64,000 nt of DNA, from NCBI GenBank assembly GCA_002011125.2, contig MTMF02000009.1, forward strand, positions 960,989 to 1,024,988. The letters run 5' to 3'. Position 1 is the first letter of the stretch. Each line of letters opens with the position of its first letter. Under the pieces are notes generated by a model. That model was given only the letters and a program-made list of their open reading frames with translations, made no database searches and was not told where the DNA came from. The position numbers were made by a program, and so were the translations under genes. Source of the DNA: Candidatus Hydrothermarchaeum profundi (GTDB lineage Archaea; Hydrothermarchaeota; Hydrothermarchaeia; Hydrothermarchaeales; Hydrothermarchaeaceae). Shown piece by piece: positions 5,726-61,467 of this stretch.

Positions 5726-6238
5726 ATGAAAATAGTGGCGGTAATAGGGGCTGGAAGGAAATCTGGTAAAACAACAACTATTGAGGCTCTTGTTAAAGAA
5801 CTTTCTGCTAGGAATTTTGAAGTTGGCACTATAAAACAAATACATGAGGAGGATTTTTCTATAGATAAGCCGTATAAGGATACTTGGAGACATGCCGAGG
5901 CTGGTGCGAAAATTGTAGTATCCGCAGCTCCTAACGAAGTGGCAGCTATTAAAAGGCTAAGGGACGGTGATAGGTTTTCTGAGGCTATGGGTTTCTTGGA
6001 AAAAGAGGATTTAGATTTTGTTATTATAGAGGGGAATCCTGGGGTGAGCGTAGATAAAATCCTTGCTATTAGAGATGCAACTTCAGCAGCCGATATCTTG
6101 ATGAAAGTGAAGAGAATATTGTTTATATCTACCTTATCACAGAATTTTGATAGTTCTAAATTTAATGTTCCCGTTTTTAATCCCTTAAAGGATCAGATTA
6201 AAATGATCGACTTTTTCCTAAATTCTTTGGATAAGTGA
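5726..6238 (+). CDS. mobB: MobB-like molybdopterin-guanine dinucleotide adapter GTPase
   Basis: GTP-binding protein that assists attachment of a nucleotide to molybdopterin or tungstopterin. The P-loop GAGRKSGKTTT is near the N-terminus, followed by KQIHEEDFSIDKPYKDTWRHAEAGA, which matches the MobB switch region with its D-W-R-H pattern. ATG 5726 is preferred over the in-frame TTG 5717, giving 170 residues beginning MKIVAVIGAG. It stands alone without mobA or moeA nearby. It implies molybdo- or tungsto-enzymes elsewhere in the genome. Confidence 0.88.
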   Translation: MKIVAVIGAGRKSGKTTTIEALVKELSARNFEVGTIKQIHEEDFSIDKPYKDTWRHAEAGAKIVVSAAPNEVAAIKRLRDGDRFSEAMGFLEKEDLDFVIIEGNPGVSVDKILAIRDATSAADILMKVKRILFISTLSQNFDSSKFNVPVFNPLKDQIKMIDFFLNSLDK

Positions 6239-6357
6239 CTTAGATTAATTCTATTAAAATCATCAAATTATTTTTAAATCCATGGTAACTTGTATGGCAC
6301 TGCGAGTTCTCCTATACGATTTTTTTCGTTAATAACTCACAAGAGAGATGAGGAACA

Positions 6358-7032
6358 ATGAAAAGCATAGTAGAACTATTTGCCAAGTCTCCTTTTAAGC
6401 CATTAGAACTGCATGTTGAAAAAGTAAAGCTCTGTTCAGATATGTTTAGGGAATGTGTAATTGCATATTGTAAAAGCGATTTTGAAAAAGCCGAGACTTT
6501 AGCTGTAGAGATTTCAAGAATAGAGCACGAAGCAGATAAAATTAAAAATTTTATTCGTGAACATCTTCCCAAAGGAATTTTTATGCCGGTGGATAGAGGA
6601 GACCTTCTCAATTATTTATCTGAACAAGACAAAGTCGCAGATTATATTGAGGAAACTGCTCTTACTCTTGCTCTTAGAAGAACTATGCTATCAGAAGACC
6701 TAAGAGAGGACTTTCTAGATCTCGCCAAAAAAACGTGCGACGTTGTAGATTTAATTCCTCTTACAGTTAAGAGCATGAGCGGGCTTTTAGAGACCTCTTA
6801 TCTAAAAAAAGGCGAGGGGAAGATAATGGAATACATAAGATTAATGAAAGAAAAAGAGGAACTTACAGATCAACTTGACTTAAAGATTAGGAAAGAACTC
6901 TTCGACAAAGAAGATGAATTTACACATGGTGAGTTTTTTCATTTAATGAGGACAATTAAGCTTCTTTCTAGGATTGCTGATCATGCAGAAAACTGTGGTG
7001 ATCGGATGCTTATTATGATAGCTAAGGTTTAA
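6358..7032 (+). CDS. DUF47 / PhoU-like protein
   Basis: All-helical cytosolic protein of 224 residues of the PhoU-related DUF47 family, with features such as SRIEHEADKIKNFIREHLPKG, the acidic DRGDLLNYLSEQDKVADYIEE and the closing RIADHAENCGDRM. These acidic and histidine-rich repeats bind metals in PhoU relatives. Family members commonly sit beside Pit-type phosphate transporters and regulate them, but no transporter is adjacent here. The next gene follows after 13 bases with a strong AAGGAGGT site, so they are probably co-transcribed. Confidence 0.82.
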   Translation: MKSIVELFAKSPFKPLELHVEKVKLCSDMFRECVIAYCKSDFEKAETLAVEISRIEHEADKIKNFIREHLPKGIFMPVDRGDLLNYLSEQDKVADYIEETALTLALRRTMLSEDLREDFLDLAKKTCDVVDLIPLTVKSMSGLLETSYLKKGEGKIMEYIRLMKEKEELTDQLDLKIRKELFDKEDEFTHGEFFHLMRTIKLLSRIADHAENCGDRMLIMIAKV

Positions 7033-7045
7033 GGAGGTAGATTAT

Positions 7046-7339
7046 GTGATTGAACCTAAGACTGAGATAATAATGGTGGGGCATATACTGGAAAAAGGAA
7101 TAGTATTCAAGCTCTATGAGGCGATAAAGGATATAGATGTAGATGTAAAGCACTGTGAAATATCATTTACAACACTTAAGGACGGTATAGAGGAGAAGAA
7201 ACCTTCTACCATGAGGTTCTATTTAATAGGGCCAAAAGAGGAAAGAGATAAGGCACTTAAGAAAATAGAGGAGCTGGCACAAGAAACTGGGTGCGGTGTT
7301 CAGAGAGTGGATTATGATAAACTTTGGGTTAAAACCTGA
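7046..7339 (+). CDS. Small alpha/beta protein, function unknown
   Basis: A protein of 97 residues starting at a GTG placed 7 bases after AAGGAGGT (7031-7038), a strong start signal. The predicted alternation of strands and helices, with VGHILEKGIVFKLYEAI, STMRFYLIGP and a final helix KALKKIEELAQETG, suggests a ferredoxin-like or ACT-like fold. It faintly resembles the small domain found in front of LOR/SDH-type enzymes, but I would not assign it. It is probably cotranscribed with the DUF47 gene. Its stop abuts the stop of the convergent AMMECR1 gene. Confidence 0.65.
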   Translation: MIEPKTEIIMVGHILEKGIVFKLYEAIKDIDVDVKHCEISFTTLKDGIEEKKPSTMRFYLIGPKEERDKALKKIEELAQETGCGVQRVDYDKLWVKT

Positions 7340-7966
7340 TTACTCAGATTTCTTAAAAGTTCTACAGAATACCGGCCCGTTTGGCTTTTCCTCGGAGAAT
7401 ATCACGCCTTTAAACCGATATACTTTCGTATTGATGTCAAACCAAGAGTCTGGGAGGAGCCCAGCTTTCATGCAGGTGTGAGATAGGAACTCTTCGGTGT
7501 CCCATCCAAATTCAACAGGGACTTGCGGTAATAAAAGCCCTCTATTTAAGCCTTTTTCAACTATTAAACCATCTTCCCCAATTTTTATAGTATCTAGATA
7601 ATCCTTTGGCGATTTAACTCTAATTAGTTCTGGTGGGGTAAGAATACTTACCTCTAAGATAATATGCTCAAGTTCATACTTAGTAAGATGAGGAAAGCGA
7701 GGGTCTTGGGTAGCTGCAGCTATCGCAGACTTTATAGTAGCATCTACTAGCGGCATAATTGGTTCTGGATAGCCTATGCATCCTCTAAGTTCCTTAGAAG
7801 GATAGGTCTCAATAGTTACAAAGACTCCTGCATTTTGTGATAATTTTTTAGGATATTCTTTTGGCGGGTCAATGACCCTACCCTCGCGTATATATTCAGT
7901 AATAGCTTTCCTAGCTAGTTTGACTAGAAATTCACCATCTTCTATAGAGTATTCTACTGGTTTCAT
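7340..7966 (-). CDS. AMMECR1 domain protein
   Basis: A cytosolic protein of 208 residues with the AMMECR1 signature LRGCIGYPEPIMPL and the C-terminal GFDTEEFLSHTCMKAGL-like segment. The family is conserved in archaea and eukaryotes. Its biochemical role is not firmly established, although links to RNA or nucleotide chemistry have been proposed and it often neighbours MEMO1-type proteins. Its start overlaps the stop of the upstream zinc-ribbon gene by 4 bases (ATGA), so the two are translationally coupled. Confidence 0.9.
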   Translation of the reverse strand: MKPVEYSIEDGEFLVKLARKAITEYIREGRVIDPPKEYPKKLSQNAGVFVTIETYPSKELRGCIGYPEPIMPLVDATIKSAIAAATQDPRFPHLTKYELEHIILEVSILTPPELIRVKSPKDYLDTIKIGEDGLIVEKGLNRGLLLPQVPVEFGWDTEEFLSHTCMKAGLLPDSWFDINTKVYRFKGVIFSEEKPNGPVFCRTFKKSE

Positions 7967-8343
7967 TTCGTGTAAAAAATATATCTTTTTGGGGCTAAAT
8001 ATCTTTTGTCCATTTTGAAATCACATCTCTTGCATTTGCTTCCTACTAAAGTCTCTTCACCCAACAGTCCCTTTACTTTGAGCTTTTCAAGTTCTCCCCC
8101 GCATATAAAACACTTCTTAGCCTCTTTATTAGATCTCCTCTTCTCAACGAATATTTTCACGTCAGGCATCTGTGAAGAAATTCTCTTGAGCCTTTCGACC
8201 GACAACTTGTAGTGGGGGTTATCCTTCCTTAATTTCCTTAATATCATATCTAAGAAGAGCTTTTGTGAATCTATTTCTTTATTTTTTTCCAAAACTACTC
8301 TAATAGCTCCTTGCACATCTTTTTCTTTTGGAATCTTGTACAT
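7963..8343 (-). CDS. Zinc-ribbon protein, function unknown
   Basis: A protein of 126 residues. The N-terminal 75 residues are helical and basic, in a winged-helix-like arrangement (KLFLDMILRKLRKDNPHYKLS). The C-terminal part holds a zinc ribbon, CFICGGELEKL followed by GSKCKRCDFKM, giving two CxxC pairs. This suggests nucleic-acid binding. It is coupled by ATGA overlap to AMMECR1 downstream. No specific family is recognised. Confidence 0.7.
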   Translation of the reverse strand: MYKIPKEKDVQGAIRVVLEKNKEIDSQKLFLDMILRKLRKDNPHYKLSVERLKRISSQMPDVKIFVEKRRSNKEAKKCFICGGELEKLKVKGLLGEETLVGSKCKRCDFKMDKRYLAPKRYIFYTK

Positions 8344-8376
8344 TTAGACTTAAATTGTAGATTCGAAATAAAAAAA

Positions 8377-8835
8377 TTATTCCTTCATAAGATCTCTAAC
8401 GGTTTTTTTTATTTTATCCCAATGGCTTCCATGCCAGTATATTTTGCCGCAATCCCTACATTCCCAGAACTCTTCAACCACTGCTAGTATCCCGCCGGGT
8501 ACTTTATTTTTAACTTTACCTTTTTCCAGCTTCTTGATTTCCCCGTTGCATAGAGGACAGCGGGAGTTTTCTGGAGTTTCTTTCAGAACTATTCCTTTAT
8601 TTCTAATAAGTTGCCTAAGCTGGTCTTGAAGCGAATTACTAGAAAAAAGAATGACTTCTCTACCACTCTTCAATGCTTTCTCAGCCAGCTCTGCGTCACG
8701 CGTTAAAATTACTCTTTTCGCTGCTTTATTGAGAACTTCTTCATCAGAGTAATACCTAGAATAAAGTACATCATATCCACTTAACCTTAGCCATCTAGCA
8801 AGCTTTCCCATCATAGAGTCTGCAATAAATCTCAT
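8377..8835 (-). CDS. Mut7-C RNAse domain protein
   Basis: A protein of 152 residues of the Mut7-C (PIN-like plus zinc ribbon) family. The PIN-like part starts RFIADSMMGKLARWLRLSGYD, with acidic residues D5 and the pair in TRDAELAEKA. The second half is a zinc ribbon, CPLCNGEIKKL and CRDCGKIYWHGSHWDK. The family is predicted to cleave RNA from its PIN-like fold, with no confirmed target. It lies in the same direction as the zinc-ribbon/AMMECR1 pair, 33 bases upstream, so it may lead that transcript. Confidence 0.88.
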   Translation of the reverse strand: MRFIADSMMGKLARWLRLSGYDVLYSRYYSDEEVLNKAAKRVILTRDAELAEKALKSGREVILFSSNSLQDQLRQLIRNKGIVLKETPENSRCPLCNGEIKKLEKGKVKNKVPGGILAVVEEFWECRDCGKIYWHGSHWDKIKKTVRDLMKE

Positions 8836-8937
8836 TTTAATACATTTAGTATAGTGATAAATTTTTAGGGACTAACCATAATCTTTTTATTTGCTAGATA
8901 TATTTATAACTGAAGAAAATAAACCGGAGGAATTTAA

Positions 8938-9486
8938 ATGGACACTGAGGTCAGAGTTAGGGAAGCAATGACAACAGATGTTATAACTGTAGATAAAAGT
9001 ACTTCCGTAGATGAAGCGGCTAAGTTGATGGCTGAAAAAAATATAGGAAGTCTCATAGTCGTTGAGGATCATAAGCCGGTAGGTATTGTAACAGAGAGGG
9101 ATATATCTTTTAGAGTGGTAGCCAAAGATAGAAAGCCCTCCACTGTAAAAGTAGGAGAAATAATGTCATCGCCCTTGAAGACAGTTGGACCTAATATTAG
9201 TCTAACAGAGGCTAGCAAAATTATGGCTAAAAATAATCTGAGGAGGCTCCCGGTAATAGACAAGGGGAAGCTTGTAGGCTTGATAACTAATAAAGATATC
9301 CTTGCCATAGCTCCAGAGCAAATTGAGATTCTTACCGAACTTTCGAGGATGAAAGAAGAGCCTATAGAAAAAGAAGTTCCAGATAAGGGAACATGCGAAA
9401 ACTGTGGAGACTATGGCGTAGAGTTATACGAAGTCAATGGAATCTTCGTTTGTGAAAGTTGTAGGGAGGAATTGGGTGGGGACTGA
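8938..9486 (+). CDS. Two-CBS protein with C-terminal zinc ribbon (CBS array gene 1)
   Basis: A cytosolic protein of 182 residues with a single Bateman module: CBS1 starts at REAMTTDVITVD and CBS2 at VGEIMSSPLKTV, each ending in the typical VGxxTxxD segment. The last 30 residues form a zinc ribbon, CENCGDYG and CESCREEL. CBS pairs usually bind adenine nucleotides or SAM, but the ligand here is unknown. GGAGG at 8926-8930 sits 7 bases before the ATG. This is the first of five consecutive CBS genes, and its 3' end overlaps the next one by 11 bases. Confidence 0.9.
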   Translation: MDTEVRVREAMTTDVITVDKSTSVDEAAKLMAEKNIGSLIVVEDHKPVGIVTERDISFRVVAKDRKPSTVKVGEIMSSPLKTVGPNISLTEASKIMAKNNLRRLPVIDKGKLVGLITNKDILAIAPEQIEILTELSRMKEEPIEKEVPDKGTCENCGDYGVELYEVNGIFVCESCREELGGD

Positions 9487-10273
9487 CCTCAAAGTGGCCG
9501 AGGTCATGACCACAGGTCCTCTCTGTGTTAGGGAAGAGGACTATGCGACCAAGGCCAGATCTCTCTTCAGGAAAACAGGTTATAGGAGTTTGCCTGTAGT
9601 AGATGAAGACAATAGACTAGTGGGCATAATAACTAGAGGGGATATACTGAATGTTACATCTACCAAATCAAATATCCAAGTAGGCGGTTTAATGTCTTCT
9701 CCCATAATTTATGCGACTCCAGAAGAGGATATTATTAGCGTTGCTAAAAGGTTAATTAAAGCTGATGTAAATAGGGCTCCAATAGTAAAATCTAATTCGG
9801 ACATGGAGTTGGTTGGTATACTATGTCTACATGACATTATGCGGGAGTTAAGAAGAAAGGGAATTAAACCTAGAAAAAAGAGGGTTAAGGAGGTAATGAC
9901 AGAAAATATTTTGACTTGCAGCCCTGCCGATCCGATAACGAAGGTTTGGGCTAAAATTGATGATACCGGGTATTCTGGTATTCCTGTTATTAAGGATGGT
10001 AGGCCAATTGGCATGATTACGAGAAAGGACATAATAAAGGCAGGATACGCTAGAATTGAGAGAGAGGGTAACAAAGGAAGGATGAAGAACCCCCCGATAG
10101 TTGAAAAGCTTATGAGGACTCCTGTAATCAGCGTTTCGAAGGAATGTAGTGTTGAAGAAGCAGTAGATCTAATGCTTAAATTTGATATTGGTAGACTGGC
10201 AGTAGTAGAGAATGGAGTTCTAGTTGGGATAATTGATAGAGAAGATGTTATAAAAGCATATATAGGGGATTAA
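9476..10273 (+). CDS. Four-CBS protein (CBS array gene 2)
   Basis: A protein of about 265 residues consisting of four CBS domains and nothing else. The modules start near VAEVMTTGPLCV, VGGLMSSPIIYA, VKEVMTENILTC and VEKLMRTPVISV. GTG 9476 is chosen because GGGAGGA at 9464-9470 lies 5 bases upstream. An earlier in-frame ATG at 9437 is well inside the previous gene and lacks a site. With no attached enzyme or transporter domain, it probably acts as a nucleotide-sensing partner of another protein. It is followed after 1 base by the third array gene. Confidence 0.88.
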   Translation: MGTDLKVAEVMTTGPLCVREEDYATKARSLFRKTGYRSLPVVDEDNRLVGIITRGDILNVTSTKSNIQVGGLMSSPIIYATPEEDIISVAKRLIKADVNRAPIVKSNSDMELVGILCLHDIMRELRRKGIKPRKKRVKEVMTENILTCSPADPITKVWAKIDDTGYSGIPVIKDGRPIGMITRKDIIKAGYARIEREGNKGRMKNPPIVEKLMRTPVISVSKECSVEEAVDLMLKFDIGRLAVVENGVLVGIIDREDVIKAYIGD

Positions 10274-10274
10274 A

Positions 10275-11210
10275 ATGGTGAAGGATTTCATAAAAGAGAG
10301 AATAAAAGATGTACATAGTATAACTAAAGCAAGGGAAAGGAAAGCCTTGGATTTCAAGTCGAAGTTAGCATCGTATGAAGGATCAATAATGTCTATTGCA
10401 ACAAAAGAAGTAGTTACTATTCCTCCTACTATGACAATAAAAGGTGCAGCAGAAACTATGACTAAGTATCGTTTTAGGAGGCTTCCAGTATGTGATCCAG
10501 GCACTAATAGGCTTGTGGGTATTGTAGGCAGTAGTGATATTATAGACTTTTTGGGTGGAGGCGAAAAGTATCTTTTAATTGAGAAAAAGTTTGGTGGAAA
10601 TTTTTTTGCCGCTATTAATGACTCAGTAAGAGAAATAATGGTAACAGATGTATTAACTGCGCGGACTGATGAGACTATTGAAGAAGCATTGGATAAGTTG
10701 CTTAAAACCCGTGCTGGGGGAATCGTAATAGTTGACGATGAACAGAGGGCTAAGGGAATAATTACAGAACGTGATTTCGTGTTTCTTCTTTCTGAAAAAG
10801 TTACTGGTAAGAAAGTGGGAGAGCATATGACTACTAACGTTGTAACCGCAACTCCAGGAATGCCGTTGGGAGACGCATGTAAGATAATGGTTAGGAATAG
10901 TTTCAGGAGGTTGCCTGTCGTGAGTCAAGGATTCTTAAGAGGCCTTATAACCACAAGAATGATTATCGAGTTTATTGGAAGGAATCATATTTTTGATAAG
11001 ATAGTACAAAATAAAGTTAAAGAAATCTTAGATACCAGAGTTTCGGAGATAATGTCTAGAGATGTGCCGACCATATCAAAGGAAGCAGATATCGGTGAAG
11101 CAGCTAAGATTATGGAATCAAGCGGTAGAGGTACAATCTGCGTTGTAGAGGACAGCAGGCTTTTGGGTATTCTGACTGAAAGAGATATACTAAAGGCGCT
11201 AGCAGAATGA
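10275..11210 (+). CDS. Four-CBS protein (CBS array gene 3)
   Basis: A protein of 311 residues with a basic helical lead of about 35 residues (KDFIKERIKDVHSITKARERK), then four CBS domains starting near GSIMSIATKEVV, VREIMVTDVLTA, VGEHMTTNVVTA and VSEIMSRDVPTI. A longer spacer of about 25 residues separates the first and second modules. No other domain is present. It starts 1 base after array gene 2 and ends in a 4-base overlap with array gene 4, so it is in the same operon. Confidence 0.9.
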   Translation: MVKDFIKERIKDVHSITKARERKALDFKSKLASYEGSIMSIATKEVVTIPPTMTIKGAAETMTKYRFRRLPVCDPGTNRLVGIVGSSDIIDFLGGGEKYLLIEKKFGGNFFAAINDSVREIMVTDVLTARTDETIEEALDKLLKTRAGGIVIVDDEQRAKGIITERDFVFLLSEKVTGKKVGEHMTTNVVTATPGMPLGDACKIMVRNSFRRLPVVSQGFLRGLITTRMIIEFIGRNHIFDKIVQNKVKEILDTRVSEIMSRDVPTISKEADIGEAAKIMESSGRGTICVVEDSRLLGILTERDILKALAE

Positions 11211-12058
11211 TGATTGAAAAATATATGAGTAAAGAATTGGTCGTTGTATCCCCAGGCGATACTATAGCTCATGTGCGCAACTTATTGATATCTAACAGAG
11301 TGAGTAGAGTATTAATTGCTCAAGAAGGGCTGGTAGGTATAGTAACTAAAAAAGATATTTCAGAGAGGCTCGCTACAGGGAGTGCGCTATGGAGAAGAAG
11401 ACCGATTGACAAGATTTCTGTGAGTAGAGTCATGACTACCGATCTCATTACGATTTCTTCAGATGCATCGATAGCTGAGGCAGCCAAAATGATGATAGAA
11501 AATAAAATATCTTCTCTCCCGGTTATAGATGACAAAGGTAACTTAGTAGGTATTATAACAAAAACGGATCTAGTTAAGGCGTATCTTGAGAATTATAGGG
11601 GAAAATATAAAGTTAGAAAACTTATGAGTAAAAATGTTGTAACTGTTGATAGATTTCATACTCTGAGTCACGTGGTTGAACTAATGCGAGAGAAAGGAGT
11701 AGGCAGAGTGATTGTGATTGATGGTGGTAAGCCGGTTGGTATTATAACTCCTTCTAATATCTCATTCTATGAGTTAACTGAGCCTCGAAGAGGTGTAAGG
11801 GTAATGGAAAAGACTTTTGTCAGAAAACCTGATAGGGCAGAAAGGCCGAGATATAGGTATGTAAAAACATTACTCGTTACTGCAGAAGATCTTATGTCCT
11901 CAAATCTTATTACGATTAAAAGCACGAGAGACGCGACAGAGGCTGCGGATCTCCTGATCAAAAATAAAATATCTTCATTGCCTGTAGTTGATGATACCGA
12001 ATTATCTGGGATAATAACTAAAACGGATATTGTGAGGGGGATAGCAAAAATCGGGTAA
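11207..12058 (+). CDS. Four-CBS protein (CBS array gene 4)
   Basis: A protein of 283 residues with four CBS domains starting near IEKYMSKELVVV, VSRVMTTDLITI, VRKLMSKNVVTV and AEDLMSSNLITI. The second and fourth modules are strikingly alike, sharing NKISSLPV and GIITKTD, so the gene probably arose from duplication of a two-CBS unit. ATG 11207 overlaps the TGA of the preceding gene, an ATGA coupling. The ligand and partner protein are unknown. Confidence 0.9.
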   Translation: MMIEKYMSKELVVVSPGDTIAHVRNLLISNRVSRVLIAQEGLVGIVTKKDISERLATGSALWRRRPIDKISVSRVMTTDLITISSDASIAEAAKMMIENKISSLPVIDDKGNLVGIITKTDLVKAYLENYRGKYKVRKLMSKNVVTVDRFHTLSHVVELMREKGVGRVIVIDGGKPVGIITPSNISFYELTEPRRGVRVMEKTFVRKPDRAERPRYRYVKTLLVTAEDLMSSNLITIKSTRDATEAADLLIKNKISSLPVVDDTELSGIITKTDIVRGIAKIG

Positions 12059-12091
12059 TTCAATAATATTTAATCTTTCGAGGTGGGATCT

Positions 12092-12871
12092 ATGGTCCTT
12101 TTAGTTGATGATTTAATGACGAGGGAAGTTATTTGTATCGATAAGAATCGAGCTTTATCAGACGCTTATAAGCTAATGGAGAAGAAAAATATTTCTAGGA
12201 TATTGGTTACTTCTGCCGGGGAATTATGCGGTATTATGTCTATAAAGGATGTGCTTGAACATTTAGGGTCATCTAAACATGGTAAAATTTTGCCCTCTAG
12301 TCTTCATGTGTCTACTGTAATGAATGATAGCCTGATAGTTATTAAAAAAGGCAAAAGTGTAAGAGATGCTGCTAAACTGATGCTTGAGAATAGAATTTCT
12401 TGCCTGCCTGTGATGGATGCTGACCGCGTTGTTGGAATAATTACTAAGACAGACCTAATAAAAAGTCTTAAAAACTCTAAAAAGAAGATTGAGAAGGTAA
12501 TAACATGGGACCCAGACGTAGTTAGCCCAAAGGATAGAGTAGTGCATGCTAGGCGAATAATGCTCGATAAGAACATTGGCAGACTCATAGTTCTAGAAGA
12601 AGATGAACTCGTAGGGATAGTAACAGAGAAGGATATAGCTAAAGCCTTATCCGCTTTTAGGAAAACTGCAGATAGGTATCAATATAGCCGTATAAGGAAC
12701 ATGATAATAGAAGATGTAATGACACAAACAGTTAAAACACTTGATATAAATGCAACGGTAGGGGATGCCGTTAGCATGATGTTAGAGAATAATTTTTCTG
12801 GGATTCCTATCCTTAATGACGGAAAGTTGGCAGGTATAGTCACTAAGACGGACCTCATACGAGTTATATGA
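12092..12871 (+). CDS. Four-CBS protein (CBS array gene 5)
   Basis: A protein of about 259 residues with four CBS domains starting near VDDLMTREVICI, VSTVMNDSLIVI, IEKVITWDPDVV and IEDVMTQTVKTL. ATG 12092 is preferred over GTG 12083 because GAGGTG at 12080-12085 lies 6 bases upstream. Its second and fourth modules carry GIITKTDLI / GIVTKTDLI, like array gene 4. The stop overlaps the RNA ligase start by 4 bases, so the array and the ligase are translationally coupled. Confidence 0.9.
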   Translation: MVLLVDDLMTREVICIDKNRALSDAYKLMEKKNISRILVTSAGELCGIMSIKDVLEHLGSSKHGKILPSSLHVSTVMNDSLIVIKKGKSVRDAAKLMLENRISCLPVMDADRVVGIITKTDLIKSLKNSKKKIEKVITWDPDVVSPKDRVVHARRIMLDKNIGRLIVLEEDELVGIVTEKDIAKALSAFRKTADRYQYSRIRNMIIEDVMTQTVKTLDINATVGDAVSMMLENNFSGIPILNDGKLAGIVTKTDLIRVI

Positions 12872-54557: not shown

Positions 54558-54573
54558 CCGAAATCTTTATATA
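54558..54573 (+). promoter_or_regulatory. BRE and TATA box of the sulfur operon
   Basis: CCGAAA (54558-54563) followed by TTTATATA (54566-54573) gives a BRE-TATA pair. The expected transcription start is about 54596, leaving a leader of roughly 30 bases with AAGGAG at 54611-54616 before the aprA-like TTG. Confidence 0.6.
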
Positions 54574-54575
54574 CT

Positions 54576-54612
54576 ACTTAACGATAGTTAAGTGAATTTT
54601 AACGATTGTTAA
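54576..54612. promoter_or_regulatory. Two palindromic operator-like sites
   Basis: The first site, ACTTAAC-GATA-GTTAAGT (54576-54593), is a perfect inverted repeat of 7 bases with a 4-base spacer. The second, TTAAC-GATT-GTTAA (54599-54612), repeats the same core. Centres are 21 bases apart, about two turns of DNA. They lie between the TATA box and the ribosome binding site, where a bound protein would block transcription. Confidence 0.6.
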
Positions 54613-54626
54613 GGAGTGTTTGTAAA

Positions 54627-56336
54627 TTGGAAATCGATACCGACCTTCTCATTATAGGTGGTGGCACAGCAGGTTGCCTTGCAGCAGTTGAAGCTAAAGA
54701 GCTAGATCCAGATTTAAAAGTCACAATTCTAGAGAAAGCACATATAGAAAGAAGTGGATGTCTCGCAGGCGGGATAAATGCAATTAATGTATACATCCAT
54801 GAAGGAGAGTCTCCTGAAAGTTATGTAAGGTGGGCACGCTGGTATGCCATGGGTTTACTAAGAGAAGACCTAGCCTTAACTATGGCTAGAGAGATAAACA
54901 AGGCTATAGAGAAGGTCGAGAAGTGGGGCTTACCTATACCCAAGGATGATAAGGGCCGATATCTAAGAAGAGGGCGGTGGGGGATTCATGTTTTTGGAGA
55001 GTCTATAAAACCCATTCTCGCGAAGGCAGTAAAAAATGCTGAGGTGGATGTATATAATAGAGTAGTGGTAACAAATCTTCTGACTAAAAGAGAAAAGGTT
55101 ATTGGAGCGGTAGGGTTTGGAGTTAGAAATGGAGACTTCTACCTGGTAAGAGCGAAAGCTACTATCGTTGCAACAGGCGGAGCAGCAGGACTTTATAAAC
55201 CTAAAAATGATGGTGAAGCCCATCATAAAATATGGTATTCGCCTTTTAACACAGGAACAGGTTACGCGGTGGGGATCAGAGCTGGTGCTGAGATGACAAG
55301 CTTTGAAATGAGGTTTAATGCTATTCGTATAAAAGATGTAAACGCGCCGATTGGCACCATAGCTGTTGGTTTTAATGCACCGGTCATTAATTCTAAAGGT
55401 GAAAAATTTATGCAGAAAAACTATGCGCACTTAGGAGGCGAGGCAGCGCCAACTCCACTGCGAGTACATGGGCCAATGGAAGAAATAAGAAATGGTAGAG
55501 GACCATGTTATATAGATACTCGGAGGTTAAATGATAAAGACTTGAGACGTTTGAAAGAAGAATATCTCGACGAATATCCCACACTAGTATTGTATCTCGC
55601 TTCAAACGGTATAGATCTTAAAAATAGGTTTCTTGAGATCTACGGCACAGACCCATATATTGTTGGTGGGCATTGTAACGCGGGGTATTGGATAAATACT
55701 GATCGATCAACTACGTTAGAAGGTCTATATGCAATTGGAGATGTTGCTGGTGGAGCTAGCAGTAAGTTCGTGGGAGGTTGCTTCGCTGAGGGTATTATAG
55801 CAGCTCGCGCAGCTGTTGATTACATATGTAACAAAAATGCTTTGGAAGAAGTAGATCCAGAACTGGTAGATAAAGAGAGGTATAGAACTTTTGCTCCGCT
55901 ATGGAGATATAAAGAAGGAAGACATGGGCCTACTCCTAAGGAAATGGAACTAAGATTGCAAAAAGTTATGGATGAGTATGTGGGCGGTGTACATCAGTTT
56001 TACTTGATAACTGAAAAAGGGCTAGAAATAGCTAAAATTGAGATTAAGGCACTTAAAGAGCAAGCAGAGAATCTTATTGCAAGAGACCTTCATGAACTCA
56101 TGCTTGCGCATGAGTTAATAGATAGGTTAGATGTTGCTGAAGTGCTTATTCATCATCTCCTATATCGTAAAGAGACGAGATGGCCGGGATTCCAGGATCG
56201 GGTAGAGTATCCACATTTAGACGACAAGAATTGGCTGGTATTCGTAAACTCTAGAAAGAATCCTAAGACCGGAGAAATAGAGGTTTTTACAAGGCCTTAT
56301 GAGCAAATTGTCCCAGGGGATAGGTACAATCCATGA
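54627..56336 (+). CDS. aprA: Adenylylsulfate (APS) reductase alpha subunit-like
   Basis: FAD flavoprotein of 569 residues that reduces APS to sulfite and AMP, or the reverse. The FAD motif LIIGGGTAGCLAAVEAKE is followed by LAGGINAINVYI, WGIHVFGESIKPILA, ATGGAAGL, EMRFNAIRIKD, and HCNAGYWIN with the expected histidine, then AIGDVAGGASSKFVGG. The order and spacing match AprA better than succinate dehydrogenase, but it is about 70 residues shorter than the dissimilatory enzymes. TTG 54627 is chosen because AAGGAG (54611-54616) precedes it. First gene of the operon. Confidence 0.82.
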   Translation: MEIDTDLLIIGGGTAGCLAAVEAKELDPDLKVTILEKAHIERSGCLAGGINAINVYIHEGESPESYVRWARWYAMGLLREDLALTMAREINKAIEKVEKWGLPIPKDDKGRYLRRGRWGIHVFGESIKPILAKAVKNAEVDVYNRVVVTNLLTKREKVIGAVGFGVRNGDFYLVRAKATIVATGGAAGLYKPKNDGEAHHKIWYSPFNTGTGYAVGIRAGAEMTSFEMRFNAIRIKDVNAPIGTIAVGFNAPVINSKGEKFMQKNYAHLGGEAAPTPLRVHGPMEEIRNGRGPCYIDTRRLNDKDLRRLKEEYLDEYPTLVLYLASNGIDLKNRFLEIYGTDPYIVGGHCNAGYWINTDRSTTLEGLYAIGDVAGGASSKFVGGCFAEGIIAARAAVDYICNKNALEEVDPELVDKERYRTFAPLWRYKEGRHGPTPKEMELRLQKVMDEYVGGVHQFYLITEKGLEIAKIEIKALKEQAENLIARDLHELMLAHELIDRLDVAEVLIHHLLYRKETRWPGFQDRVEYPHLDDKNWLVFVNSRKNPKTGEIEVFTRPYEQIVPGDRYNP

Positions 56337-56342
56337 GGTGAT

Positions 56343-56660
56343 ATGTTGACCATCGTGATACACCATGAAAAATGCACTGGGTGCAAAGGCATGAAAGAAC
56401 CTCTATGTGTAAAGCTCTGCCCAGGAGACCTTATAATGATAAAAAATGAGAAGTCCTTCATCCGAGACCCCGGAGATTGTTGGGATTGTATGGCATGCGT
56501 AAAATCATGCCCTTACGGCGCTATTGAAACCAAGCTTCCTTATGAGCTGGGTTATAAAGATGCGCATTTGATTCCCAAGAGAAAAGGGAAGATAATAGTC
56601 TGGGAGCTTGTTTACTCAGACGGCCGAAGGGAAGTATTTGAGAGGCAGGTGAGATTATGA
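56343..56660 (+). CDS. aprB: APS reductase beta subunit-like ferredoxin
   Basis: Iron-sulfur subunit of 105 residues passing electrons to the FAD subunit. The first cluster is CTGCKGMKEPLCVKLCP and the second is CWDCMACVKSCP, the AprB pattern with an insert in the first cluster. The following tail (YELGYKDAHLIPKRKGK) is shorter than in dissimilatory AprB of about 150 residues. ATG 56343 follows the upstream stop by 6 bases. The stop overlaps the ATP sulfurylase gene by 4 bases. Confidence 0.85.
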   Translation: MLTIVIHHEKCTGCKGMKEPLCVKLCPGDLIMIKNEKSFIRDPGDCWDCMACVKSCPYGAIETKLPYELGYKDAHLIPKRKGKIIVWELVYSDGRREVFERQVRL

Positions 56661-58450
56661 GGCAAACTCCAGTTGGAGGCAGATTAGTTAACAGAGTATT
56701 AAAGGGCAGAGATAAAGTGAGAGCTAAAGAAGCAGCGGCTAACCTCCCAAAAATCAAGATTGAAAATGATATTATAGTCACGCTTGAGATGATAGCTACT
56801 GGAGTGTTGAGTCCGTTAGAAGGATTTCAGGGATACGAAGATTATAGAAGCATATTAGAAGATAAAAGACTTGCTGACGGTACACCCTGGACAATCCCCC
56901 AAATATTCGCTCCGAATATAGAGTCAACTAAGAGTCTAGACGAGATTAAGGAAGGGGAGGATATAGCTCTTATTGGAAAATCAGGAGAACCCATTGCTTT
57001 ACTACATTTGGAGGAGAAGTTTACTATCGATAGAAAAGAAATGGTAGAATATATTTTTGGTACGAGTGATAAATCTCACCCAGGAGTTAATTATGTTTAT
57101 AGGAAGGGAGAAAGGGCTTTAGCAGGAAAGATAGATCTAATACACAGACCTTCATGGGGCCCATTTGAGAAATATAGACTTGAGCCTAAAGATACTTGGG
57201 AAATATTTAAGGAAAGAAACTATGAAACAGTAGTAGGATTTCAAACAGCTAACCCTCTCCATCGGGGCCATGAGTATTTGCAGAAATGTGCATTGGAAAT
57301 ATTTGATGGGATATTTATTAACCCAATAGTTGAAACCACCCGACGGGCGTATTTTAGAAATGAATTCAGGATAAAAGCATACGAGGAGGCTATCAAGGTC
57401 TACTATCCGGAAGATAGAGTAGTTTTTGCACCGCTCAGACTAATAATGCAATATGCTGGACCAAGAGAAGCAGTAATGCATGCCTTGATAAGGAGAAACT
57501 ACGGATGCACGCATTTTATTTTGGGAAGAGATCATGCAGGATACAAAGATTATTACCCGAAATATGCATCTCAAAAAATATTTAAAGAGTTTGAAGAGGA
57601 TGAGCTTGGGATAACCCCCTTATTCTTCCGAGAAGCCTTTTATTGCGCTCGTTGCGCTAATCTAGCTACAGAGAAGACATGTCCTCATGGTAAAGAATAC
57701 CATATTACTATGAGCGCCTCTATAATCCAGGATATTTTTAGGTATGGCTATCTCCCTCCAAAAGAAGTAATGCGGCCAGAAGTTTCACAGATAGCAATAC
57801 AGGGAATCCAGCCAAAAGGGCTTGATGAGACTGGACATGCATTAGAATCTCCTGGAGCAGCAATAAAAGGCATGTTTCCATTCTATATAACCCACTACAG
57901 GCTTGGAGGATATAAAAGGGACAGACCGCTAGACGTTAATTCCCTTACAGTTGCGGATATCCGCAGGGCGCTTCTTGATGTAAGGATTAACGCGAGTAAG
58001 ATATACGAAGAAATCTATGAGACGATTGCTTATTATTTCGATATATCCCGGGATTTGGTTGCTAATCGTAGAGGAGAGGCTTTAGAACAGTCGGTGGATA
58101 GGCAAATTAGATTGATTAAAACTTTGAAGGAAAAAGTTGAGGGTGCACCAGAATCTGTACAAGACCCATTTATGTATCAAGATAAAAACGAGGCCAAAAA
58201 AGAATTAGATATAGCTCAAAAAATATTAAACGACCTTTTCAGGTATAGGCCCAAGGATTTTGGTATAAGAATCTGGAATCCACTAGAATATGAGAGGTAT
58301 CGACATTCTTCGATTGCAACCTCTTCAGTTTATCCGAATATAATCTACGATAAAATGAACCGGGCTAGCATAGAGGACGATGCGAAACCTAATGCATCTA
58401 TCGCCGTCGCTGAAGCAGATTGGAATTATGAAAAGAGGGTAAGAAAATGA
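56657..58450 (+). CDS. sat: ATP sulfurylase with long C-terminal extension
   Basis: Interconverts ATP plus sulfate and APS plus pyrophosphate. The N-terminal PUA-like region (PVGGRLVNRVLKG, ATGVLSPLEGFQ), the nucleotide motif QTANPLHRGH (196-205), LRLIMQYAGPREA, LGRDHAGYKDY and a zinc-type CARCANLATEKTCPHG are in the normal order. The core ends near residue 380 (MRPEV), but the protein continues for about 215 helical residues, so it reaches 597 instead of about 380-460. Arginine of the usual QTRNP is alanine here. No kinase P-loop occurs in the extension. Confidence 0.85.
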   Translation: MRQTPVGGRLVNRVLKGRDKVRAKEAAANLPKIKIENDIIVTLEMIATGVLSPLEGFQGYEDYRSILEDKRLADGTPWTIPQIFAPNIESTKSLDEIKEGEDIALIGKSGEPIALLHLEEKFTIDRKEMVEYIFGTSDKSHPGVNYVYRKGERALAGKIDLIHRPSWGPFEKYRLEPKDTWEIFKERNYETVVGFQTANPLHRGHEYLQKCALEIFDGIFINPIVETTRRAYFRNEFRIKAYEEAIKVYYPEDRVVFAPLRLIMQYAGPREAVMHALIRRNYGCTHFILGRDHAGYKDYYPKYASQKIFKEFEEDELGITPLFFREAFYCARCANLATEKTCPHGKEYHITMSASIIQDIFRYGYLPPKEVMRPEVSQIAIQGIQPKGLDETGHALESPGAAIKGMFPFYITHYRLGGYKRDRPLDVNSLTVADIRRALLDVRINASKIYEEIYETIAYYFDISRDLVANRRGEALEQSVDRQIRLIKTLKEKVEGAPESVQDPFMYQDKNEAKKELDIAQKILNDLFRYRPKDFGIRIWNPLEYERYRHSSIATSSVYPNIIYDKMNRASIEDDAKPNASIAVAEADWNYEKRVRK

Positions 58451-59307
58451 TAGATCACGAGAATATAAGGATGGAAATCCAACAAAAGCAAGAGGGATAT
58501 GGAGTATTGAGAGCACCAACGTTTGGTAGGATAACATCTCAACAGCTTAAAACGCTAGCTAAAATCTCTAGAGAATTTGGTGATGGCTACGCATTACTCA
58601 CCATGAGGAAAGGATTCGAGATACCTTGGATAAATAGAGAGAATTTTGGGAAAGCCCTCTCAGAGATTGAAAAAACGGGTCTAAAAGTAGGGTCTAGTGG
58701 GAATACAGTAAGATCCATACTTCCCTGTGCTGGTCAGGACAGGTGTCCTTTTGACATACTGGAGGTAGGTGTGTTAACCAAGAAAATAAGAAATGAACAC
58801 TATGGCAGACCTATGCCTATGAAATTTAATATAACTCTTTGTGGTTGTCCGAACTATTGTACTCATCCATATCTGAGTGATATAGGGATAATAGGCAGAG
58901 CACGCCCTAGAGTGAACGAGGACAAATGTATAGGTTGTGGTCAATGTGTAAGACTCTGCCGCGGAGATGATGGTGGAGCACTACGTCAAGTAGATACGAA
59001 TGCACCTGAAATTGATTACGAAAAGTGTATAGAGTGTGGGTGGTGTATAAAAAACTGCCCTACTGGTGCAATGGAAGCAGAGAAGCAAGGATGTAGTATA
59101 TTGGTTGGAGGCAAAGGCGGAGCAAATCCAAAACTTGGTGTAGAGTTAATTAGAATAATATCTATAGAAAAGGTAGGCCGTGTTTTAGAGAGAATCGTTC
59201 AATATACGGAGGAATATTCTAGTAAAGGTGAAAGATTGGCTGATGTAATTGAAAAATATTCGTTTGAACACTTTAAGAATTATGTGTTAGGTGAAATCGA
59301 TGACTAA
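58447..59307 (+). CDS. Siroheme sulfite reductase-like protein with inserted ferredoxin domain
   Basis: A 286-residue protein with a siroheme-[4Fe-4S] site, C94-x5-C100 and C134-x3-C138, plus two [4Fe-4S] ferredoxin motifs inserted at about residues 156-205 (CIGCGQCVRLC and CIECGWCIKNCP). It resembles the catalytic half of Fsr or Dsr-like proteins. Substrate-binding R54, R89 and K126 are present, but the second lysine of the usual K-x-K is N128. It overlaps sat and the next gene, so all are coupled. Natural substrate could be sulfite or nitrite. Confidence 0.85.
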   Translation: MIDHENIRMEIQQKQEGYGVLRAPTFGRITSQQLKTLAKISREFGDGYALLTMRKGFEIPWINRENFGKALSEIEKTGLKVGSSGNTVRSILPCAGQDRCPFDILEVGVLTKKIRNEHYGRPMPMKFNITLCGCPNYCTHPYLSDIGIIGRARPRVNEDKCIGCGQCVRLCRGDDGGALRQVDTNAPEIDYEKCIECGWCIKNCPTGAMEAEKQGCSILVGGKGGANPKLGVELIRIISIEKVGRVLERIVQYTEEYSSKGERLADVIEKYSFEHFKNYVLGEIDD

Positions 59308-60001
59308 AGTTAGAGGAAGAATTGGCTTATTAGCTCAAAGGCAGAAAGATTACGTAACCATCAGGCTAAGGATACCTTTGGGAAAACTTACGGCAGAGCA
59401 GATGGAGGGAATATCCCAGATCATTGAAGAATATGGAGACGGCTATGCTATACCGACTATTCGTAAAAGCCTAGAAATACCTTGGGTCAGATTTGAGGAT
59501 TCTAATAAAGTTCTAAAAGAGTTAAGGAAAATGGGTCTCTCGGCAGGCTCATGCGGGAGAAAAGTGAGGACAATAGTGGCATGTGCGGGATTAGGACATT
59601 GCATCCATTCTCATAGAAATCTAGAGAAAATGTACTATAAGCTCCTCGGAAATTATTACATGAAAGATACTCCCACTAAATTTAAAATATCCCTCTCCGG
59701 GTGTCACCTTGCTTGTAACCATCCTTATATTAATGACTTTGGAATTATTGCCACTGAAGATGGCTTTTCAATCCTTGTAGGTGGAAAGGGTGGTAGACAC
59801 CCCCAGTTTGGAAAGCTGATAGTTGAAGGAGTATCTGAGGAAGAGGTATTCAATATTCTTGATAAAACCTTGGAATATTTCAGAAAGTATGCTCAAGGCA
59901 GAGAGAGGATTTATGAAGTTATAAAAAGAAATGGCGTAGACCATTTTAGAGGATACGTGTTAGAGGGGGTGAAAGCTTGGCCAAGAGATTCGAAGAATTA
60001 A
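59300..60001 (+). CDS. Small assimilatory-type siroheme sulfite reductase
   Basis: A 233-residue protein with a siroheme-[4Fe-4S] site, C95-x5-C101 and C135-x3-C139, and no ferredoxin insertion. R55, R90, K127 and K129 (KFK) match the four anion-binding residues of known sulfite reductases. ATG 59300 is preferred over GTG 59291 because TTAGGTGA lies 5 bases upstream. It overlaps the preceding gene by 8 bases and the following by 25. It may pair with the ferredoxin-bearing paralog as a heteromer. Confidence 0.85.
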   Translation: MTKVRGRIGLLAQRQKDYVTIRLRIPLGKLTAEQMEGISQIIEEYGDGYAIPTIRKSLEIPWVRFEDSNKVLKELRKMGLSAGSCGRKVRTIVACAGLGHCIHSHRNLEKMYYKLLGNYYMKDTPTKFKISLSGCHLACNHPYINDFGIIATEDGFSILVGGKGGRHPQFGKLIVEGVSEEEVFNILDKTLEYFRKYAQGRERIYEVIKRNGVDHFRGYVLEGVKAWPRDSKN

Positions 60002-61026
60002 AAAAAGAAGTGATAGACAAAGGTTTTTGTGTACACTGTGGTGCTTGTAGCGCATTTTGCAATCGCATAAAGCTTAATGCGTCTCCACAGCTTGTCGGGA
60101 AATGTGTGGAGAGCTGTTCATCTCCTTATGGAACTGATGGGGTATGTTATGAGCATTGTCCAATGGTTAAAAGCTTTGATGAAAAACATATCTTTCAAAG
60201 GAATACTTCCGATCCATTAGGGATATATATTTCATTAAAGTCAGCTCGTGCTCATGATAATAGTCTTAACGGTGTTCAGGATGGAGGTGTTGCAACAGCC
60301 TTGCTTAAGGCAGCATTTGAAGATGGAGAGATAGATGCAGCTATCGTGGTAGGTAGAGATGAGCTATGGAGAAGTCAACCTAAAATAGCGTGGTCGGTTA
60401 AAGACTTAATAGGTACTTCTGGGTCTAAATACACTGAAACGCCTGTTATAGAACTCGTAGGTAAACTTTCTCGAGAAGGCGCAAGTAGTGTCGCAGTTGT
60501 CGCTGTGCCATGTCAAATACAGGCGCTCCGGAATTTAGAATACGGGCTTCTCTATCCAAATGGGTTCTCCCCTTACTCAGACATGATGCTGTACACGATA
60601 GGCTTGTTCTGTTCAGGTGTATTCAACTATAAAGAACTTGTAAATAGACTTGATGTAGACTTGAAATATGTTGATAAAATGGACATAAAGGATAGTAAAT
60701 TTAAAGTGGAAGGGAAAATTACCAAAACTTTGCCTCTTAGTAGAGTAAAAAAAGCTTTATTACCCGCATGCAAATATTGCAGGGACTACACCGCAAGACT
60801 CGCTGACATATCTTTAGGCTCTGTAGGGTCCCCAAAAGGTTGGACTACAGTAATCGTTAGAAATCCAAATGGAAGCTGGCTGTTAACAAATGCTAAAAAT
60901 TTAGGATTAATAGAGGTGAAGCGAGGTCTAAGTGAAAATGTACTAAGAACTCATGTTGATAAAAGAATAAAAAATGTGAGTAAGGAATGTATGAAAGCTA
61001 ATGAGATTCCGCCTTCATTTAAGTAA
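59977..61026 (+). CDS. F420H2 oxidase-like subunit (FrhB/FpoF family)
   Basis: A 349-residue F420-binding iron-sulfur protein that likely oxidises reduced F420. The N-terminal cluster region has CVHCGACSAFC, then CVESC and CYEHCP. The FrhB core follows with DGGVATALLKAAFEDGEIDAA, GSKYTETPVIELV, VAVPCQIQALRNLE and ACKYCRDYTARLADISLG. In Methanocaldococcus Fsr this region is fused to a sulfite reductase domain; here it is a separate gene. TTG 59977 follows AGGGGGT. It ends in an 8-base overlap with the convergent regulator gene. Confidence 0.88.
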   Translation: MAKRFEELKKEVIDKGFCVHCGACSAFCNRIKLNASPQLVGKCVESCSSPYGTDGVCYEHCPMVKSFDEKHIFQRNTSDPLGIYISLKSARAHDNSLNGVQDGGVATALLKAAFEDGEIDAAIVVGRDELWRSQPKIAWSVKDLIGTSGSKYTETPVIELVGKLSREGASSVAVVAVPCQIQALRNLEYGLLYPNGFSPYSDMMLYTIGLFCSGVFNYKELVNRLDVDLKYVDKMDIKDSKFKVEGKITKTLPLSRVKKALLPACKYCRDYTARLADISLGSVGSPKGWTTVIVRNPNGSWLLTNAKNLGLIEVKRGLSENVLRTHVDKRIKNVSKECMKANEIPPSFK

Positions 61027-61375
61027 AACAGGCATCGCAATCGTTTGGCACTATGCTGGCTTCTTTATGCGGGCCGCAAAGAGTTTTATCTGATTTTGCA
61101 GCTTCACATATTCTACATATCTCTTTATATGGGTTATGTTTTTCTCCAGAGATTATCTTATCAGCAAACTCAGATATAGCGGCTTTAGCATTTTCTTTGA
61201 GTTCAATTTTTTTCCCACGCTTTCCTTTCAAATATTGAGAAACAGCCGCTTCTGTAACCCCCATTACTGATGCCACTTCCTTCTGACTCATCCCGCGGCT
61301 GATTAGTTCTTTTGCTAGGTCTGATTTTATTGCCGGTAAAACATACCATACTACTAATTCACAGGGAGCTTTCAT
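61019..61375 (-). CDS. Helix-turn-helix regulator with cysteine cluster
   Basis: A 118-residue regulator. The HTH is SQKEVASVMGVTEAAVSQYLKGK (residues 30-52). The C-terminal part has C87-x2-C90, C100, then C113-x2-C116, with H103, a likely iron-sulfur or metal sensor site. The family resembles archaeal XRE-like predicted regulators (COG2522). Its upstream region holds a degenerate copy of the operon palindrome. It probably represses or senses redox or sulfur for the operon, and itself. This is inference from position. Confidence 0.78.
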   Translation of the reverse strand: MKAPCELVVWYVLPAIKSDLAKELISRGMSQKEVASVMGVTEAAVSQYLKGKRGKKIELKENAKAAISEFADKIISGEKHNPYKEICRICEAAKSDKTLCGPHKEASIVPNDCDACFT

Positions 61376-61391
61376 AATAGTTTATAAAATA

Positions 61392-61467
61392 ACTTAACGC
61401 CTATTAATTTTTTTGAATAAAAAATCTTTAATTATGATAATACATACGTCAGCTTTCATAGGCGTTA
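61392..61467. promoter_or_regulatory. Inverted repeats upstream of the regulator gene
   Basis: ACTTAAC-GCCT-ATTAATT (61392-61409) matches the operon palindrome in its left arm and at five of seven positions in the right. In addition, TAACGCCTAT (61395-61404) and ATAGGCGTTA (61458-61467) form a perfect 10-base inverted repeat 53 bases apart. They sit in the divergent spacer between the regulator and the membrane-protein genes. Confidence 0.5.

Follow-up and report, generated by a model that had tools for sequence, protein, structure and literature searches.

Fsr of methanogens, in which an F420H2 oxidase is fused to a siroheme sulfite reductase, serves as a model of how the reduction of sulfite came to be linked to F420. 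A two-subunit form, aFsr, has been predicted in haloarchaea (Susanti and Mukhopadhyay 2012, PMC3448663). Within the Hydrothermarchaeota, the accessible text of Kato et al. 2019 (PMC6759336) places Sat, AprAB and an AsrC/Fsr-C homologue of MBGE-D in one contig and proposes that they reduce sulfate jointly; an FrhB-like gene, SirB and F420 as donor are not mentioned in that part of the report. The locus described here belongs to the same phylum and likewise holds these core genes in one contig. From its gene order, conservation, motifs and tree positions we infer, with moderate confidence, that sulfate is converted to sulfide by the soluble enzymes of a single operon, in an assimilatory-type route where an FrhB-like F420H2 oxidase, as a subunit of its own, would supply electrons to a SirA-SirB sulfite reductase.

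The window, by which we mean the whole stretch of 64,000 nucleotides that was analysed, comes from an uncultured hydrothermal-vent archaeon of the Hydrothermarchaeota, with a genome of 2.19 Mb that is 97.65% complete. According to the ORF table and the Pfam/NCBIfam profiles, six open reading frames, all on the plus strand, follow one another in the order aprA-like, aprB-like, sat, sirA, sirB and FpoF/FrhB-like, with intergenic spacings of 6, -4, -4, -8 and -25 nt. The features are as follows:

54559..54573, plus strand: archaeal promoter-like element, read directly in the sequence, with BRE-like CGAAA (54559-54563) and TATA-like TTTATATA (54566-54573)
54577..54592, no strand: operator-like palindrome 1, CTTAACGATAGTTAAG
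54598..54613, no strand: operator-like palindrome 2, TTTAACGATTGTTAAG, 21 bp downstream of palindrome 1
54627..56336, plus strand: aprA-like flavoprotein (APS/PAPS reductase alpha), from NF005331, the best PDB match (8a8o) and the loop alignment
56343..56660, plus strand: aprB-like ferredoxin subunit of 105 aa with 8 Cys (TIGR02060 72 bits, below the cut-off of 135.65)
56657..58450, plus strand: sat, ATP sulfurylase with a C-terminal extension of about 200 aa (NF003166, 455 bits)
58447..59307, plus strand: sirA, siroheme protein with an internal 2[4Fe-4S] ferredoxin domain and Lys462 (MjFsr numbering) changed to Asn
59300..60001 (ORF table start 59291), plus strand: sirB, small siroheme protein without a ferredoxin domain
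59977..61026, plus strand: frhB/fpoF-like F420H2 oxidase subunit with an N-terminal 2[4Fe-4S] domain
61019..61375, minus strand: HTH_3 protein with a Cys-rich tail, convergent to the operon, a possible regulator

The profiles identify sirA as NIR_SIR with two Fer4 sites, sirB as NIR_SIR without Fer4, and the last gene as FrhB_FdhB with both N- and C-terminal domains. The operon is flanked by a divergent GYD-domain gene on one side and by the convergent HTH gene on the other. The original prediction of six overlapping or closely spaced genes with these motifs agrees with the ORFs, the profile matches and the spacing (6 to -25 nt), and its view of a single operon is borne out by one tight unit with an operator-like pair and its own promoter-like site, at which the predicted left end, 54558, falls. 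Elsewhere in the window, at 8938-12871, five genes in a row resemble multi-CBS-domain proteins.

The six-gene unit does not reflect chance, since a five-gene core, aprA-aprB-sat-sir-frhB, recurs in the same order in three genomes of the same taxonomic order (G006, G010 and G012), each with a single Sir. The proposed conservation of the gene arrangement therefore holds for this core, but the full set of six is found in none of the three, and a further relative (G005) has only sir1-sir2-frhB, with neither apr nor sat on its 11-kb contig. Thus, the sulfate arm and the Sir-FrhB arm can live apart. Directly behind this Sir-Sir-FrhB set lies an 86-aa DsrC-family gene that has only the last, C-terminal cysteine (L038, 5446-5706), a possible sulfur relay partner. 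The cluster-bearing relatives include BMS3Abin16, SZUA-236, which is a published Hydrothermarchaeota genome (PMC6946796), J060 and NC_groundwater_1307, and a scan of the genome contigs returned only four loci, all already known from the genome search. Sat is confined to four of the 23 genomes of the phylum, the same four that hold the five-gene core, and together with AprAB it adjoins Sir-FrhB in four of the five clusters. All genomes used are draft or uncultured, and the contigs of the relatives are fragmentary.

The FrhB-like protein retains the Fe-S ligands of the Fsr oxidase half: 11 of the 11 cysteines of MjFsr (seven N-terminal and four further) are kept in all five operon-type proteins, and the two N-terminal and one internal [4Fe-4S] sites are present. 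With the subfamily bounded at 281 bits or more, the next match scoring 200 and below, this FrhB subfamily and the Sir clade co-occur in exactly five of the 23 genomes of the phylum, and neither is found in any other. In the tree, the operon FrhB-like proteins are monophyletic (100/99) and are joined (99/96) by a sister group that holds an HdrA2-linked paralogue of the same genome, and not by Fsr-N. Indeed, the host has one FrhB-like gene beside HdrA2 and another beside CODH alpha, so that exchangeable F420 adapter modules of the FrhB type are normal in this lineage. Such adapters are structurally proven elsewhere in CODH and Fwd, the CODH pairing being 8RIU (PMC11493965). We also note that one host locus (L113, G000:C9:296000-313000) contains two divergent sets, HdrA2-MvhD-like-FrhB-HdrC/B-like and FrhB-CODH alpha, which suggests F420-linked Hdr and CODH.

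The siroheme subunits likewise lie outside Fsr. All seven Sir sequences form one clade (100/100). Its sister (90/90) comprises AsrC and the group III Dsr-LP of methanogens, and Fsr-C, DsrAB and the small alSir-like proteins fall elsewhere; a joint Sir and Fsr clade is not rejected by the AU test (p 0.096). Neither the Sir tree nor the FrhB tree supports a direct split of Fsr. The original prediction of a 'split Fsr' is thus not supported as a statement of descent, neither half grouping with Fsr, while its claim that separate subunits carry the same chemistry draws support from the complete Fsr cysteine set of the FrhB-like protein and from its co-occurrence with Sir. The locus shares with group I Fsr (MjFsr, MtFsr) the FrhB/FpoF-type oxidase with 11 Fe-S cysteines, the two extra [4Fe-4S] sites of the siroheme half and, in SirB, the sulfite-binding residues, but differs in having separate polypeptides in all five genomes, two siroheme subunits and an origin in other family branches. 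As in haloarchaeal aFsr, the F420H2 dehydrogenase and the sulfite reductase are separate subunits, but the siroheme protein there is of the assimilatory aSir type whereas that of the window is of the Dsr-LP/AsrC type. Group III Dsr-LP and AsrC are closest in the SirA domain layout and in tree position, but mostly lack an FrhB partner. The AsrC equivalog profile scores SirA at 143.5 bits and SirB at 70 bits, both below its cut-off of 324.1, and a search of the operon found neither asrA nor asrB, which are present beside bacterial asrC. On the best reading of these comparisons, the unit would work like Fsr, but both of its parts would stem from branches other than those of Fsr.

SirB retains the equivalents of R355, R388, R423, K460 and K462 together with the CX5C...CX3C motif, including the Arg, Arg, Lys and Lys that bind sulfite, which is the assimilatory-type set described for Fsr (PMC10229431, from which the MjFsr numbering is taken). 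The same residues occur in the single Sir of the three five-gene relatives and in Sir2 of G005. In SirA of the window K462 is replaced by Asn, and in Sir1 of G005 R423 is replaced by Lys. Conversely, the two extra [4Fe-4S] sites are found in SirA and in the single Sir of the three relatives but are absent from SirB, and since the nearest kin of SirB carry the ferredoxin insert, secondary loss is likely. The predicted structure of SirB (pLDDT 85.5) matches Fsr chains best, with an E value of 5.6e-17 and a TM score of 0.80 by query. Sequence and predicted structure suggest that SirA could be an electron-input subunit and SirB a catalytic one, in a division of labour like that of DsrAB; as the tree does not settle the orthology of SirA and Sir1, the basis for this division is a single substitution in either protein. 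Paired siroheme proteins also occur in family f2 (L039, L040, L043, L045), where Lys462 is exchanged for Thr or Ala in two adjacent ferredoxin-bearing members and their first cysteine motif is shortened; a PAS-domain kinase is encoded near at least one such pair.

In the route that we favour, Sat would make APS from sulfate, the AprAB-like flavoenzyme would convert APS to sulfite, and the siroheme reductase composed of SirA and SirB would reduce sulfite to sulfide. The FrhB-like protein would oxidise F420H2 via FAD; from its three [4Fe-4S] clusters the electrons would pass to the two in the SirA ferredoxin domain and finally to siroheme, with SirB, whose active site is complete, probably catalytic and SirA, whose active site is altered, probably its electron-input partner. 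Counted by sites, the relay would have six clusters as in Fsr: three of FrhB, two of the SirA ferredoxin and the one at siroheme. F420H2 may drive APS reduction as well. The operon encodes no membrane partner, and known redox chemistry implies that a route of this kind driven by F420H2 would conserve no energy, which fits assimilation or the removal of sulfite. We can also imagine, as a speculation that we think unlikely to hold, that SirA, SirB, FrhB and AprAB come together around one F420H2-oxidising subunit as a soluble eight-electron assembly from sulfate to sulfide, and that the group III Dsr-LP branch independently evolved a DsrAB-like alpha-beta asymmetry.

Siroheme reductases often accept nitrite. 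In addition, FsrII of ANME, in which the sulfite-binding residues are changed, is a nitrite reductase (PMC9295563), and Sir-FrhB might similarly be an F420H2-dependent reductase of nitrite or another oxyanion. We consider this very improbable, as SirB retains the sulfite-binding Arg and Lys residues that FsrII has lost, and sat and apr are present in four of the five clusters. It is also doubtful, if slightly less so, that the FrhB-like protein has AprAB as its sole electron acceptor while free ferredoxin feeds SirA and SirB. For the AprAB-type enzyme MtPAPSR, whose electron donor was left open, an oxidase has been suggested as partner (PMC10322725), and the operon would provide one; yet frhB stands directly behind sir1-sir2 in the G005 contig that has no apr or sat, and in the window it overlaps sirB by 25 nt.

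The sulfate arm resembles that of the assimilatory MtPAPSR of Methanothermococcus thermolithotrophicus (8a8o, PMC10322725). AprA scores 721 bits with NF005331 (cut-off 557), and its closest relative is MtPAPSR (627 bits, against 407 for AfAprA), the alpha subunit of which is the best PDB match. The specificity loop, however, reads Gln-Trp-Gln in AfAprA, Lys-Arg-Ser in MtPAPSR, Arg-Trp-Gly in the window AprA and Arg-Trp-Asn in its relatives, and these residues do not by themselves decide between APS and PAPS. A further difference from the MtPAPSR system is that the 97.65% complete host genome holds no APS kinase, which favours APS as the substrate. PAPS was rejected as substrate for this host, the sole APS_kinase match over cut-off being an AAA_33/PSTK-like kinase. 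Sat is the only one in the host and exceeds the NF003166 cut-off of 387. Its C-terminal extension has no Pfam match and is shared by 540-aa Sats elsewhere in G006 and G012; the extension looks helical over about 160-210 aa (window 57800-58450; L166, 798-2420; L167, 5398-7020). An AlphaFold model of Sat from three sequences reached a pLDDT of 39 and was set aside.

The Sat-AprAB arm could alternatively be respiratory, supplying sulfite to the DsrAB and DsrC of the host in dissimilatory sulfate reduction, or running in reverse to oxidise sulfite to sulfate with a gain of ATP, while Sir-FrhB scavenges leaked sulfite. Besides the operon, the host encodes two DsrAB pairs, a DsrC with both C-terminal cysteines, DsrO over cut-off and a DsrP-like gene, and is therefore not short of sulfite reductase; the operon Sat is its only one. 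Published studies credit Hydrothermarchaeota with reducing sulfate or oxidising sulfur by way of DsrAB (PMC6759336, PMC6946796). Several observations nevertheless make a respiratory role unlikely. AprA falls short of the dissimilatory model TIGR02061 (487 bits, cut-off 642) and has Gly in place of Gln145, and a profile search of the host genome found no QmoC over cut-off, which sets the locus apart from dissimilatory AprAB with Qmo. The DsrAB genes lie far from the operon. Moreover, the three five-gene relatives have no DsrC match, and DsrAB is absent among the matches listed for them, so the cluster may be their main sulfite reductase. The original prediction had missed the two DsrAB pairs and DsrC of the host, the earlier-reported Sat-AprAB-AsrC core and the active-site difference between SirA and SirB. 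One DsrAB pair (L032, G000:C9:118000-136000, 6036-10436) adjoins, on the same strand, a COX1-family protein, a two-domain cytochrome c and a cupin, an odd neighbourhood for a dissimilatory sulfite reductase.

A survey of 394 archaeal genomes also bears on the assimilatory role. Outside the phylum, the closest relatives of Sir come from a single family, f36, probably methanogens, and several of their genes have CysH with CysD/CysN-like genes, or Sat, as neighbours. These assimilatory-type clusters favour assimilation for the operon as well. At two other loci of the family (L174, L179), Sir is divergent to an FrhB-like gene. A separate arrangement in G017 (L049, 5754-8459), a NirA-like siroheme protein with an FrhB-like gene close behind, resembles the predicted haloarchaeal aFsr.

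We regard as new that the locus has an FrhB-like subunit of its own, that this subunit and the Sir clade strictly co-occur, the independence of both trees from Fsr, the asymmetry of SirA and SirB and the operon-specific operators; a literature search found no paper on any of these, although this is not proof of absence. If our preferred reading is true, a multi-subunit counterpart to Fsr would show that the coupling of F420 to sulfite reduction arose more than once, siroheme reductases would join the enzymes served by plug-in FrhB modules, and there would be a case, separate from DsrAB, of siroheme subunits specialising for catalysis and for electron input. The operon also provides a candidate for the electron donor of assimilatory AprAB-type reductases, a question left open in PMC10322725.

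The upstream region points to separate control of the operon. The BRE/TATA-like element may serve as its promoter. Both copies of TTAACGATNGTTAAG, 21 bp apart, lie downstream of the TATA element and ahead of the probable start codon of AprA, a TTG at 54627 behind GGAG at 54613 that is likelier than the mechanical start at 54606. The exact core TTAACGATNGTTAA has two occurrences in the host genome, both upstream of the operon, which makes a dedicated repressor likely, and in a genome scan weak operator-like sites with up to two mismatches were no commoner than the control. The HTH gene was considered as a conserved regulator and rejected, the genes in the same place in G010 and G012 being unrelated. 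Upstream of this gene, at 61393-61407 of the window, CTTAACGCCTATTAA weakly resembles the operator half-sites of the operon, and autoregulation is possible.
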